NCBI GenBank assembly: GCA_026388095.1
Contig: JAPLKL010000014.1
Location: forward strand, 1 to 64,000
DNA length: 64,000 nucleotides
Origin: Elusimicrobiota bacterium
Lineage (GTDB): Bacteria; Elusimicrobiota; Elusimicrobia; UBA1565; UBA9628
Reading direction: 5' to 3'
How positions within the stretch are numbered: position 1 is the stretch's first letter; every line of letters starts with the position of its first letter. Positions 43,067-48,649 of this stretch are shown here, piece after piece. The position numbers were made by a program, and so were the translations under genes. The notes below the pieces were generated by a model, which was not told the DNA's origin, searched no databases, and saw nothing but the letters and a program-made list of their open reading frames with translations.

Positions 43067-43089
43067 GCATCCGGCCGGTACGGGTCATT

Positions 43090-43136
43090 CCGCCCCGCTG
43101 CGCGGGGCGGTGGCGGGCGAGCTGGCGCTCGCCCGC
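43090..43136. terminator. Two adjacent GC-rich hairpins between convergent genes
   Basis: CCGCCCCGC/GCGGGGCGG (43090-43110, 3-base loop) is followed directly by GCGGGCGAGC/GCTCGCCCGC (43113-43136, 4-base loop). Both stems are perfect and neither has a T-run. They separate the aminotransferase operon from the histidine kinase operon. Confidence 0.65.
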
Positions 43137-43153
43137 TCGGCACGGCGACGGAT

Positions 43154-44959
43154 TTACGCCGAAGCTATGCGCTCTCCTTCTTCCGACGGCAAAGTGAAGT
43201 AGAAAGTCGAGCCCTTGCCTTCCTCGCTCTGCACCCAGACCGTCCCGCCGTGAAGCTTGATGAATTCGCTGACCAGCGCCAGGCCCAGGCCCACGCCCGG
43301 CTGGGAGCCGTCGTTGCTGCCGACCTGGGAGAACTTCTCGAAGAGCTTCTTGATGCCCTCCTTGGATATGCCGCAGCCGGTGTCCTTTACCGCGCAGATC
43401 ACATGCCCGTGCGCGTCCGGCTTGGCAGCGGCAGCGGCCACGATCTGGCCGCCCTCCGGGGTGAACTTGATGGCGTTGGAGATGAGGTTGGCGAGCACCT
43501 GCACGATGCGCTGATGGTCGGCCATGACCATCAGGTCCGGAGACGGGGCCCGGAAGGAGAGGCTGATCCCCTTGTTGTTGGCCCAGGGCTGGAGGCTGTC
43601 CACCGCTTCCTTGAGCAGCCCGGTGAGGGAAGTGGGAGCCTGCCGGATGCTGATCTTGCCGGCGCGCAGCTTGGAGAAGTCCAGGATCTCGCTGATCATG
43701 GAGCCGAGCTGCTGGCTGTTGCGCAGGCAGACGTCCAGGAAACCGTTGTCCTCCGGCCCCAGCGTCGCTCCGGCCCGCTCGCTCAAGAGCTCCAGCGCGC
43801 AGTTGATGGAGGCCAGCGGGGCCTGCAGGTCATGGGTCACGCGCGAGAGGAACTCCTCCTGGAGCCGGAGCGTCTCCTTGAACTTGACCACGTCCGGCAG
43901 CCCGGTGTAGGTGCCCACGACCCGGCCGGAGTCGTCCTCGACTACGGCCATGGACCGGCGCAGGGCCCGTCCGACCTCGTGGTCCGCGGACACAGCCACC
44001 TCCGGATTGGTCCCAGGCTCGGCGCCGAGGTCCTTGGCCATGGCCACCATATTCTCGCCCGTGGAGACGCTCTCCATGATATTCTTGCCCGCCATATCGG
44101 CCAAGCTCTTGCCCGCGAGCTCCTCGGCGGCCGGGTTCATCATGAGGACATTGCCTTCCTTGTCCACGATGACCTTGCCTTCGGCCACGGAGGTGAGCAC
44201 TTTCGCGGTCAGCGCCTTCTCGCCCCGCAAGGCCGCGGTGGCCTGGGCCACGTGCTCATCCATGGCCTCTTTGACCAGGCGCACCGTGTCCTCGTAGAGA
44301 TGGACCCGCTCGCCAGGGTCCTCCACCGCGGACTCGACCAGCTTCTTGAGGACGGAGCCGAAGCTCAGCCCGGCCTTGCTGGACGGAGCCGCCGCGCTGG
44401 GCGGCTGGGCGGCCCCAGCGCCGGGGCCCGGGCCCGGCGCGGCGCGCGGCGCCGCAGGCAGCGGCTTGGCCGAAGCGCGGGAGTAGCGCTCCTGGTCGTG
44501 CCTGATGTGCTTGACGCCCCTCTGGACGAAGAAATCGTCCACCGCGCCCTGGGCCCGCTCCGGCGGTACCGCGGCCAGTTCGCACATGGCGGCAAGCTCG
44601 AAAGGCTTTATCCCGCGCCAAAAACTCAGGCTGCGCAAGCCATGCCCCTGGAACAGGATCCGTATGGAGTCAGGGGCCTGGGTCTCGGCCAGCGCCGGCG
44701 TCTCGTTGACCAGCCAGCGTCCGTCGGCCAAGGACAGGTCCACGCGCTCCTGCTGCGCGGTCGCGAAGGCCAGGTCCAGAAGGTTGTAGGCTTCACGGAT
44801 GGCCTCGGCGGCCATGGGGTGGTTGCTGCGGTAGAGCGCCGCCAGCTTGATCGCACGGCCCAGACTGGCGATGTACTCCGCGCCAATCTCCGCCAGGGAC
44901 GGGGCCTTGGTCCGCGCCGGTCTGGAAGACTCTGAAGCGCCGCCTGGCTTGAGCATCAC
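43154..44959 (-). CDS. Sensor histidine kinase with novel N-terminal region
   Basis: The 601-residue product has no clear membrane segment, so it is probably cytosolic. Residues about 25-170 form a helical/beta region (RAIKLAALYRSNHPMAAEAIREAYNLLD, VDLSLADGRWLVNETP). An Ala/Pro-rich linker, a PAS-like domain (GKVIVDKEGNVLMMNPAAEEL) and the kinase core follow. His376 in RVTHDLQAPLASI is the phosphorylation site. The ATPase boxes are NLISNAIKFT, KDTGCGIS, FEKFSQ and GVGLGLAL. It overlaps the TPR gene by 4 bases in a four-gene operon with two receiver proteins, which are likely targets. Confidence 0.92.
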   Translation of the reverse strand: MMLKPGGASESSRPARTKAPSLAEIGAEYIASLGRAIKLAALYRSNHPMAAEAIREAYNLLDLAFATAQQERVDLSLADGRWLVNETPALAETQAPDSIRILFQGHGLRSLSFWRGIKPFELAAMCELAAVPPERAQGAVDDFFVQRGVKHIRHDQERYSRASAKPLPAAPRAAPGPGPGAGAAQPPSAAAPSSKAGLSFGSVLKKLVESAVEDPGERVHLYEDTVRLVKEAMDEHVAQATAALRGEKALTAKVLTSVAEGKVIVDKEGNVLMMNPAAEELAGKSLADMAGKNIMESVSTGENMVAMAKDLGAEPGTNPEVAVSADHEVGRALRRSMAVVEDDSGRVVGTYTGLPDVVKFKETLRLQEEFLSRVTHDLQAPLASINCALELLSERAGATLGPEDNGFLDVCLRNSQQLGSMISEILDFSKLRAGKISIRQAPTSLTGLLKEAVDSLQPWANNKGISLSFRAPSPDLMVMADHQRIVQVLANLISNAIKFTPEGGQIVAAAAAKPDAHGHVICAVKDTGCGISKEGIKKLFEKFSQVGSNDGSQPGVGLGLALVSEFIKLHGGTVWVQSEEGKGSTFYFTLPSEEGERIASA

Positions 44960-45723
44960 ACACCTCCGAGAGCCGGTGTCCCGTCGCCGCCGGCCGCGGC
45001 GTCCCCGAGGATGCGGGCCCAGGCCAGGGCGACCAACGGGTCTCCAGGGTCGGCCTCGTCGCGAAGCAGGGATTGCGCCCGCGCCTCCTGGCCGCTCTCA
45101 GCCAGGAGCATGGCCCAGTTGGAGACGGCCAAGGGATGTCCGGGGATGACCTTGAGCGCCTTCTCGAAATAGAAGCCGGCGTCCTGAAGCCGGCCGGCCG
45201 CATAGAGCGCCACTCCCATGTCGTTGGGCGCGGCGAAGAAGCCGGGGTCCAGAGCCATGGCCTGGAAAATGGCCGGGGCGTCGGGCTGATAGCCGGAGGC
45301 GCACCAGAACTCATGGCAGTTCTGCGCGTCGTAGGCATTGAGCTTCATGGCTTGCTGGCTCTCGGCCAGCCGGCGGTCGGGGTCGGCGCGCTGCCCGCGG
45401 CGCAATGCCTTGGCCATGGCGCGATGGGTCTCGGTCAGGTTAGGAGCCGCTTCGAGGGCCTGTTGCGCCTCGTCATAGGCCAATTCGTAGTAGCTGGCGC
45501 ACTCCTGGCCCGATATCTCGCGCCGGAAGCCCCAAAGGGCGTAGGTCTCGGCTAAAGCCGCAGTGGTCGAGGCCCACAGGCCTGGCTCGAGGTCCCGGGC
45601 CTCCAAGTATAGCGCCACCGCCTCCTGGTAGCCCTGGATATCGAAGCGCCGGGCTTGCCTGCGCCCCTCATCGCGCAGGCTCTGGGCTGAGGTCTGGGGA
45701 AGGTCCAATACAGCTTCGGGCAT
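44956..45723 (-). CDS. TPR-repeat protein
   Basis: The 255-residue product has no signal peptide and is built of TPR-like helices, for example AVALYLEARDLEPGLWASTTAALAETYALWG, LAYDEAQQALEAAPNLTETHRAMAKAL and GVALYAAGRLQDAGFYFEKALKVIPGHPLAVSNWAML. Such proteins act as scaffolds. It is encoded between the receiver-ATPase fusion (1 base gap) and the kinase (4-base overlap), so it may bridge them or bind pilus-assembly proteins. No enzyme motif is seen. Confidence 0.85.
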   Translation of the reverse strand: MPEAVLDLPQTSAQSLRDEGRRQARRFDIQGYQEAVALYLEARDLEPGLWASTTAALAETYALWGFRREISGQECASYYELAYDEAQQALEAAPNLTETHRAMAKALRRGQRADPDRRLAESQQAMKLNAYDAQNCHEFWCASGYQPDAPAIFQAMALDPGFFAAPNDMGVALYAAGRLQDAGFYFEKALKVIPGHPLAVSNWAMLLAESGQEARAQSLLRDEADPGDPLVALAWARILGDAAAGGDGTPALGGV

Positions 45724-45724
45724 A

Positions 45725-47800
45725 TCATCCTCCCATCATGATCTTGAGGGCTTCGTCGACCGAGGTATCCCCGGAGGCCACCACCCGCAGAGCCGCTTGG
45801 CGCAGGGTGGTCAGACCCTCCTTTTCCACGAGGTCCTGGAGGGCATCAGCCTGCTGGCTGTTGACGATGAGCTGGCGCAGGGCCAAGCTGTCGACCGGCA
45901 TCACTTCAAAGACCGACTTGCGGCCCGAGTAGCCGGTTTGATGGCAGTAACCGCAGCCCGGAGCGCGGAACACGGTCTTAAGGGCCGCGACCTCTGCCTC
46001 GTTGAGGAACTTCTTGTCCTCGTCCGAGAGCTCGCCCGCCCTCTTGCACCGGGGGCAGAGTTTGCGCACCAGGCGCTGGGCGACGATCAGGCGCACGCTC
46101 GCCGCCACCAGATAAGGAGCGACACCCATGTGGACCAGCCGGACGATGGACGCCGGCGCGCTGTTGGTGTGCAAAGTCGAGAAGACTAGGTGCCCGGTGA
46201 TAGAGGCCTTGACCGCGATCTCCGCGGTCTCCAAGTCCCGGATCTCCCCGATGAGCATGATGTCCGGGTCCTGGCGCAGGAAGGCGCGCAGCGCGGATTC
46301 GAAGGTGAGCCCGATGCTGGGCCGGATCTTGACCTGGGAGATGCCGGCCAGCTCGTATTCGACCGGATCCTCCGCGGTCATGATGTTGACGTCCGGACGA
46401 TTGAGCATGCTGATCATGGTGTAGAGGGTGGTGGTCTTGCCGCTGCCCGTGGGGCCCGTGACCAGGATGAGGCCGTGCGGCGCGTGCAGGGCTTTTTCCA
46501 CGCAGGCCAGGTCCCGAGGCGTGAGGTCGAGGTCGGCCAGGTTGCCCTTGAGCTTGCTCTGGCCGAGGACGCGCATGACGATCTTCTCGCCCCGGGAGCA
46601 GGGCAAGGTGCTGATGCGGAACTCGACCTTGCTGCCTTTGATCTGCGCCCGGAACTGGCCGTCCTGGGGCAAGCGCCGCTCCGTGATGGAGAGGTTGGAC
46701 ATGATCTTGATGCGCGCGGTCAGGCGCGGGTGGATGGCGATGGGCAAGGTGCAGAGCAGCTTGAGGGAGCCGTCGACGCGCACGCGCACGGTGACCTTGT
46801 CCTCCCCCGGCTCGATGTGGATGTCGGAGGCCCGCATCTCGACGGCGCGCATGAGGATGCGGTTGACGCGGTTGATGAGGGGAGAATCCTGCGCCAACTC
46901 CTCGAGGCCGTGGAGGTCCGCGGCCTCCTCCTTCTTGTCGTCCGCGGACTCGACCGCGATATCGTTATCCCCGGACAGGTCATCCAGAGACTCCTCCCCA
47001 ATGAGGCCCTCCTCGTCCAGCGCCGCCGGAGCGGTGACCTCCGGAGGAAGCGGAGCCTCGGGCTGCGGCGCTCTGGCCGCGGCTGGGGGGCTTGCCCGAG
47101 GCTCCGCTGAACGATCCCCCGGAGGTAAGATGGTGGGCAACTGCACGGGCGGCGCGGGGGTGAAGAAGTCTTCTTCCTCTATGGAAGGGGGCAAAGACGG
47201 CGCGACGGTGTTCTCCTCACGCGCGGCCTGGCCCTCTTCGGGGGCTGCGTCGGCCGTCATGGGCGGCGCCGCGTCCGGGGCCGCCTCACCGGGAGTCTCG
47301 GGCTCAGGCAGGGACTCCAGCGCCTTCCTGACGCTCTCCAGGAGCTTCCCGTTGCTGACCGGCTTCTCCAGGAAATCCGAGACCTCCAGGTTGATGCTCT
47401 TGAGGTGCTGCCGGTTGGGCGCGCCCGTGAACATGATGACCGGGATGCTCCGCAGCTCCATGCGGCTGCGCAGCTCCTGGAGCAGCTCGTAGCCGTTCAT
47501 CCTGGGCATGTTGAAATCGAGGATGATCAAGTCCGGCTGGTGGCGCAGCACAGACTCCAGAGCGCTGCGCCCGTCCGCCGCCTCCATCACCCGATAGGAG
47601 TGCCTGGAGAGCAGGACGCTGACCAAGGAGCGGTAGTCCTTATTGTCTTCGACGACCAGGATGGTCCGCGGCGTCGCCTTCAACTGCACAGACTCCGCTT
47701 CAGGTTCAGAAGGCGCGACCGCCGCCGCCCCGTCTCGAGCCCGCCCGCGGAGCATGGCGTCTATTTTCTCGCCCAGCTCCATCAACGGATCCTGATCCAT
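45725..47800 (-). CDS. Receiver domain-GspE/PilB ATPase fusion
   Basis: The 691-residue product starts with a response-regulator receiver domain (about 46-165): acidic pair Glu51-Asp52, phosphoacceptor Asp95 (LIILDFNMPR), Thr125 and Lys146 (LEKPV). A Pro/Glu-rich linker (to about 285) leads to a full type II secretion/type IV pilus assembly ATPase. That part has ASDIHIEPGEDKV, Walker A GPTGSGKTTTLYTM, the Asp box EDPVEYEL, Walker B MLIGEIRD, His box TGHLVFSTLHTNSA and a zinc site CPRCK...CGYC. Phosphorylation may thus switch the motor directly. ATG 47800 is preceded by GGGGGGAA; ATG 47821 is an alternative. Confidence 0.92.
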   Translation of the reverse strand: MDQDPLMELGEKIDAMLRGRARDGAAAVAPSEPEAESVQLKATPRTILVVEDNKDYRSLVSVLLSRHSYRVMEAADGRSALESVLRHQPDLIILDFNMPRMNGYELLQELRSRMELRSIPVIMFTGAPNRQHLKSINLEVSDFLEKPVSNGKLLESVRKALESLPEPETPGEAAPDAAPPMTADAAPEEGQAAREENTVAPSLPPSIEEEDFFTPAPPVQLPTILPPGDRSAEPRASPPAAARAPQPEAPLPPEVTAPAALDEEGLIGEESLDDLSGDNDIAVESADDKKEEAADLHGLEELAQDSPLINRVNRILMRAVEMRASDIHIEPGEDKVTVRVRVDGSLKLLCTLPIAIHPRLTARIKIMSNLSITERRLPQDGQFRAQIKGSKVEFRISTLPCSRGEKIVMRVLGQSKLKGNLADLDLTPRDLACVEKALHAPHGLILVTGPTGSGKTTTLYTMISMLNRPDVNIMTAEDPVEYELAGISQVKIRPSIGLTFESALRAFLRQDPDIMLIGEIRDLETAEIAVKASITGHLVFSTLHTNSAPASIVRLVHMGVAPYLVAASVRLIVAQRLVRKLCPRCKRAGELSDEDKKFLNEAEVAALKTVFRAPGCGYCHQTGYSGRKSVFEVMPVDSLALRQLIVNSQQADALQDLVEKEGLTTLRQAALRVVASGDTSVDEALKIMMGG

Positions 47801-47854
47801 TTTTCCCCCCAGCTGTTGCATCTCAAGTGTAACAGGAGGGCGTCAAGGAATTGT

Positions 47855-47876
47855 CAAGCGCGCCTCAGCGCGCTTG
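47855..47876 (-). terminator. Small perfect hairpin between regulator and ATPase genes
   Basis: CAAGCGCGC/GCGCGCTTG forms a 9-bp stem with a 4-base loop between the OmpR-type regulator stop and the fusion ATPase start. There is no T-run, so it may only partly uncouple the two genes. Confidence 0.45.
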
Positions 47877-47938
47877 TGCTGACCGTCTCAGGAAGGATGT
47901 TGGCGGTCATGCGCCAGCCCGGATGCTGGGGGCGGACC

Positions 47939-48649
47939 TCAGAGCTCGAAGCGGTAGCCGCTGCCCGGCACCGTCACGATGCGGCGGCCCAGACGCGGCC
48001 CGAGCTTGCGGCGCAGGGAGGAAAGGTGCACGGTCACGGTGTGCGGATCGTTGTACTCGGCCAAGTCGTAGCCCCAGACCGACTCGAGCAAAAACTTCGG
48101 GGTGAGCACGTGCCCGCGCTTGCGCAGCAGAAGGGTCAGGAGGTCGAACTCCTTGCGGGTGAGGTCGACGCGCCGGCCGCCGTGGCTGACGGTCCGGGCC
48201 TGCACGTCGAGGGCCACTCCGTCGGCCCGCAGGATCTCGCAGAACTCGGCCGCGGTGGCGTAGCGGCGCAGAACGGCCATGATTTTGGCCAGGAGGATGG
48301 GCGGCTCGAAAGGCTTGAGCACGTAGTCGTCGGCGCCCAGCGAGAAGCCCTCCAACTGGTCCCGTTCCTGCCTGCTGGCGCCGGACATGAGCACGATGGG
48401 GAGCGCCGCGGTCCGGCGTTCCGCGCGCAAGCGGCGGCAGAGCTCGAAACCACCCATCTCCGGCATCTGCACGTCGGAGATGACGATGTCCGGCTGGGAA
48501 TCCACCGCGGCGAGCAAGGCCTCCCGGCCCGAGTCAGCGTCGAGCACGGTATGGCCGGCCTCGCGCAGGAAGGAACGCAGCATCTTGCGGAAATCCTCCT
48601 CGTCGTCGACGAGCAAGATCTTGTAGCGCAGCGTGGGGCCTTCGGTCAT
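47939..48649 (-). CDS. OmpR/PhoB-type response regulator
   Basis: The 236-residue product has an N-terminal receiver domain with Asp15/Asp16 (LVDDEED), phosphoacceptor Asp59 (VISDVQMPE) and Lys112 (LKPFEP). A C-terminal winged-helix DNA-binding domain follows (LTRKEFDLLTLLLRKRGHVLTPKFLLESVWG, VTVHLSSLRRKLG, RIVTVPGSGYRF). It is the first gene of the minus-strand signalling block and probably receives phosphate from the kinase encoded three genes downstream. Its targets may include this operon or pilus genes elsewhere; this is inference. Confidence 0.95.
   Translation of the reverse strand: MTEGPTLRYKILLVDDEEDFRKMLRSFLREAGHTVLDADSGREALLAAVDSQPDIVISDVQMPEMGGFELCRRLRAERRTAALPIVLMSGASRQERDQLEGFSLGADDYVLKPFEPPILLAKIMAVLRRYATAAEFCEILRADGVALDVQARTVSHGGRRVDLTRKEFDLLTLLLRKRGHVLTPKFLLESVWGYDLAEYNDPHTVTVHLSSLRRKLGPRLGRRIVTVPGSGYRFEL

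Follow-up and report, generated by a model that had tools for sequence, protein, structure and literature searches.

The locus at positions 43154-48649 of the window (the whole stretch of 64,000 nucleotides of Elusimicrobiota DNA analysed here) raises the question of whether a kinase could control a pilus motor without intermediaries. Pilus biology has yet to settle how chemosensory and two-component signals are relayed to the extension ATPase PilB; the known routes run through separate receivers, FimX/PilZ, c-di-GMP and TPR adaptors. Here a receiver forms part of the motor protein and a presumed kinase is encoded next door, an arrangement in which a signal could switch the motor directly, without go-between proteins. 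Open-reading-frame calls and Pfam domains bear out the four minus-strand genes proposed in an earlier sequence-only reading: an OmpR/PhoB-type response regulator (47939-48649, 236 residues; Response_reg and Trans_reg_C), a receiver-PilB/GspE fusion (REC-PilB; 45725-47821, 698 residues from the first ATG), a cytoplasmic TPR protein (44956-45723, 255 residues; TPR) and a soluble histidine kinase (43154-44959, 601 residues from a GTG start; PAS, HisKA and HATPase_c). The spacing claimed for the last three genes is also correct, with a 1-base gap between the fusion and TPR genes and a 4-base overlap between the TPR and kinase genes; the regulator and fusion genes are separated by 117 bases. A GC-rich inverted repeat (43067-43153), possibly a bidirectional terminator, occupies the interval from the stop codon of an aminotransferase gene to that of the kinase.

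Pfam recognizes Response_reg over residues 54-164 of the fusion (E = 6e-26) and T2SSE over residues 309-692 (E = 5e-133), and both domains are complete, as had been claimed. By alignment with its orthologues the receiver spans residues 53-169 (47315-47665, minus strand) and contains the acidic pair, the phospho-acceptor Asp102, Thr132 and Lys153 (Asp95, Thr125 and Lys146 in the earlier numbering, which began at Met8 of the present frame); the acidic pair, the aspartate, the Thr/Ser and the lysine are kept in every readable orthologue receiver that adjoins a kinase. The motor domain (45746-46897, minus strand) comprises Walker A, Walker B, a His box and a tetracysteine zinc site, with catalytic and zinc residues intact, and the Walker A lysine, Walker B glutamate, catalytic histidine and four zinc cysteines are invariant in 36 of the 36 motors aligned. 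The two domains are joined by a Pro/Ala/Glu/Ser-rich tether (46907-47293, minus strand; residues about 177-305), predicted to be disordered (model pLDDT below 50), which is 54-153 residues long in orthologues with a content of these four residue types of 47-69%. The receiver and the motor are modelled as folded with good confidence, the pLDDT of the receiver exceeding 90 over most of the domain. At one locus (L056:5187-7385, genome G037) the fusion is interrupted by an in-frame TAG codon early in the motor part, reflecting either a pseudogene or a sequencing error.

The MshEN/N1 domain at the N-terminus of ordinary PilB proteins binds c-di-GMP or pilus-base proteins. No Pfam match to MshEN (PF05157) was obtained in the fusion with a library that detects MshEN in its paralogues; a receiver and linker stand at this position, where the sister motors L061 and L063 have MshEN. 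On these sequence comparisons the receiver has taken the place of the MshEN/N1 domain. In a tree of motor domains the receiver-PilB proteins form a single clade (SH-aLRT 98), in which the copies of the window's genus group with those of family f14 (99). This clade is nested in a wider one (SH-aLRT 100) that includes MshEN-bearing motors encoded beside kinase and regulator genes, together with a further, more distant receiver-PilB (L062) of unsure placement. The nesting fits an origin in which a PilB paralogue already associated with signalling genes exchanged its MshEN for a receiver, a clear example of a motor acquiring a different input. The receiver-less sister paralogues L061, L063 and L064 have as neighbours a short kinase, a regulator of the OmpR type and a hybrid kinase.

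The genome that contains the window encodes at least ten PilB/GspE-like ATPases, compared with five T2SSF platform proteins, and a canonical MshEN-PilB gene followed by a PilT-like gene is present on contig C75. Since motors outnumber platforms and a canonical PilB is available, the fusion is an accessory motor, obliged either to share a platform or to act elsewhere. Two other receiver-motor arrangements were observed in genome G000. A 1078-residue protein (L171:6278-9514, contig C43, minus strand) combines Hpt, receivers, MshEN, T2SSE and a C-terminal receiver, possibly a phosphorelay built into a motor protein, with kinase genes a few kilobases away; a second protein of 722 residues (L172:4987-7155, contig C44) consists of MshEN, T2SSE and a C-terminal receiver.

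Of the 341 genomes searched in the window's phylum, 39 contain an orthologue of the fusion (E <= 1e-138). They belong to three of the genus's seven species, to several genera within the family and order, and to many species in f14, another family of the class. Wherever contig and reading frames permit the check, the next gene downstream encodes a kinase whose N-terminal domain is the same as in the window (partial or uncalled kinases recovered by tblastn included), with three exceptions. One fusion, L059, is at a contig edge and is followed by a short kinase that lacks the N-terminal domain. The other two, L057 and L079, have no kinase nearby and possess the sole receivers to have lost the Thr/Ser (Ala and Met, respectively); being sister sequences in the tree, they are counted as one loss. 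A TPR gene stands between fusion and kinase in nearly all loci outside f14 and genome G006, in both of which it is missing, and it therefore cannot be essential everywhere. In five loci, one of them cut by the contig end, the fusion is directly preceded by a gene for a PilT-like ATPase (among them L048:7132-8250, L052:3243-4313, L060:7312-8412 and L077:3186-4283), giving an extension/retraction motor pair.

The core of the cassette is thus the fusion and the kinase, usually with the TPR protein and sometimes with a PilT-like motor. Recurrence in related genomes, which the sequence-only reading named as support for a system, holds for the fusion and kinase, and in most cases the TPR protein, but the notion of a four-gene system is not supported: the OmpR-type regulator also occurs without the cassette, and in other families an AraC-type regulator or none takes its position. 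Kinase and receiver distances are correlated (0.88; partial correlation 0.31 given the motor), which fits co-inheritance and does not imply contact. Outside the phylum, a profile search of contigs with the fusion alignment identified no receiver on any of 88 PilB/GspE reading frames in 80 loci of other phyla, among the matches listed, and no orthologue-grade match was present in any of the 237 genomes of the phylum to which an Omnitrophota metagenome-assembled genome belongs; unrelated receiver-T2SSE fusions may nevertheless exist elsewhere.

The kinase retains the phospho-acceptor His376, the N-box asparagine and the G1 aspartate, which are conserved in every relative whose alignment covers that region. 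It shows no transmembrane segment, and its cue is therefore probably cytoplasmic. Residues 1-250 contain no recognized domain, and the alignment delimits within them a domain of about 150 residues (44444-44917, minus strand) with an invariant LY...HP motif, for which Pfam gave no convincing match in 28 members. Its model is an alpha/beta structure with a pLDDT of 91.8. Foldseek returned no PDB match at E <= 0.001, a lack of match that does not amount to a new fold, and the best VIA-align superposition (Z = 6.5, r.m.s.d. 2.3 over 52 residues) covers a helical hairpin only. The domain has no name, but it was rejected as a feature special to the cassette: most genomes of the order have another, more distant kinase that carries it, and it occurs in 73 of 198 genomes of the phylum of a Nitrospirota metagenome-assembled genome (L089), where the proteins examined (L177-L186), likewise without a Pfam model for the domain, are PAS kinases, HD-domain proteins and HEAT-repeat proteins. 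In the TPR protein, weak NCBIfam hits suggested a PilW/Tgl-type pilotin, an assignment that is not favoured because no hydrophobic segment was found.

Direct control of the motor by the kinase is the best reading of the locus, given a complete receiver, a complete motor and the joint inheritance of fusion and kinase across many genomes. On the strength of these sequence comparisons, the cassette is probably a two-component system in which an accessory pilus extension motor is itself the output, under direct His-Asp control and with gated recruitment. The N-terminal and PAS domains of the soluble kinase would detect a cytoplasmic cue, and the kinase would pass phosphate to the receiver fused to the accessory PilB-type extension ATPase. 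Phosphorylation, which may turn the motor either on or off, would shift its binding to a candidate TPR adaptor and then to the pilus base, and the outcome would be a second motor recruited under a gate to a shared type IV pilus machine; in some lineages slower control might be added by an adjacent DNA-binding regulator. Given that the receiver is carried on a long flexible tether, phosphorylation most likely alters binding more than it rigidly alters catalysis, and recruitment is suggested both by this tether and by the FrzS-SgmX-PilB and PilG-PilB precedents discussed below.

Two further observations speak for direct control: the only fusions with no kinase near them, L057 and L079, are the only ones to have lost the Thr/Ser, and the MshEN-bearing relatives of REC-PilB also lie beside kinases and regulators. 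On the other side, the fusion and kinase could be neighbours with no phosphotransfer between them, and the missing TPR gene in f14 and G006, the lack of a pilin or PilC gene in the cassette and the absence of the cassette from four of the seven species of the genus count against the full scheme. A bolder form of the proposal falls just short of an even chance. In it, the extension ATPase is itself a response regulator phosphorylated by a dedicated soluble kinase, an input that stands where ordinary PilB takes c-di-GMP or adaptor signals, and in certain lineages the co-encoded PilT-like motor completes a kinase-controlled extension/retraction drive.

The direct-control reading could be extended to dual control, in which one kinase phosphorylates both the motor receiver and the adjacent DNA-binding regulator and so commands a fast and a slow branch. 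In each of the three species of the genus that have the cassette, a DNA-binding regulator is encoded directly upstream on the same strand; two genomic sites are represented (regulator and cassette are together at another site in G005), and a non-homologous AraC-type regulator (receiver and HTH_18) occupies the same place in 11 of 11 f14 loci. DNA-binding regulators were thus recruited to a place beside the cassette at least twice, from different families, and this repeated recruitment keeps dual control alive as a hypothesis. However, the OmpR-type regulator stands alone in the sister species G001 and G002, at the same site as in the window, between aminotransferase and CoA-transferase genes with the cassette cleanly absent, and it stands alone at a different site in G003; it is therefore independent of the cassette, was rejected as a core member and can function without this kinase. 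Most loci of f1, f2 and f3 have no regulator directly upstream. Dual control is regarded as plausible but less likely than not.

The identity of the driven machine bears on a second alternative, that what the motor powers is not a type IV pilus but a pseudopilus like that of type II secretion, or some other process driven by T2SSE. The PilB and GspE equivalog profiles score the fusion similarly and both below cut-off (517 of 675.65 bits and 501 of 630.25 bits, respectively). The cassette lacks genes for a pilin, PilC or a secretin, so that only two things point to a pilus as target: the family to which the motor belongs and the PilT-like gene that sometimes adjoins it. A PilT-like retraction ATPase is, however, a hallmark of type IV pili, and such a gene precedes the fusion in the five loci described above; moreover, the best solved-structure (PDB) matches of the fusion motor are PilB. 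A target other than a pilus is thus considered unlikely.

Less probable still is a receiver that serves for docking independently of phosphorylation, with the kinase acting on another target. Pseudo-receivers do control pilus proteins elsewhere, as in the case of FrzS (PMC11580455), and the two solitary copies L057 and L079 tolerate loss of the threonine, but docking alone would not be expected to preserve an active site, and Asp, Lys and Thr/Ser are fully conserved wherever a kinase adjoins. An assembly artefact, which the sequence-only reading had named as a possible refutation of the fusion, is rejected because dozens of genomes that were assembled independently share this architecture.

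Direct control of an accessory motor by its neighbouring kinase is therefore retained as the preferred reading, and it can be set against characterized systems. The families involved are known throughout; what was not found described is a complete receiver on a PilB motor that is co-inherited with a dedicated kinase, a variant of two-component pilus control. The view that the receiver-motor fusion is undescribed agrees with the open literature searched, in which no account of it was found; the sections consulted of a 2024 review of PilB control (PMC11656802) cover c-di-GMP, FimX, PilZ and other routes and name no receiver on the motor.

Like PilB and GspE, the fusion has a T2SSE motor with an N2 domain, Walker A and B motifs, a His box and a tetracysteine zinc site, but it carries a phospho-receiver on a flexible tether in place of N1/MshEN and scores below the PilB equivalog cut-off. 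The MshE-type extension ATPases resemble it in having a regulatory input joined to the N-terminal end of the motor; they bind c-di-GMP, whereas the input to the fusion, which has no MshEN match, is presumably His-Asp phosphotransfer. In Myxococcus PilB is recruited by the TPR protein SgmX, to which the pseudo-receiver protein FrzS binds (PMC11580455), so that a receiver fold, a TPR protein and PilB lie on one recruitment path, as proposed for the cassette; in contrast to the cassette, FrzS is a separate pseudo-receiver that works without phosphorylation, and SgmX, with its 14 TPRs, acts together with the GTPase MglA. In the Pil-Chp system of Pseudomonas a kinase and a receiver control the recruitment of PilB, which is delocalized when PilG or its phosphorylation is lost (PMC12632253), and a corresponding role is proposed for the cassette; there the receiver is a separate protein served by a CheA-like kinase, whereas in the cassette it is part of the motor.
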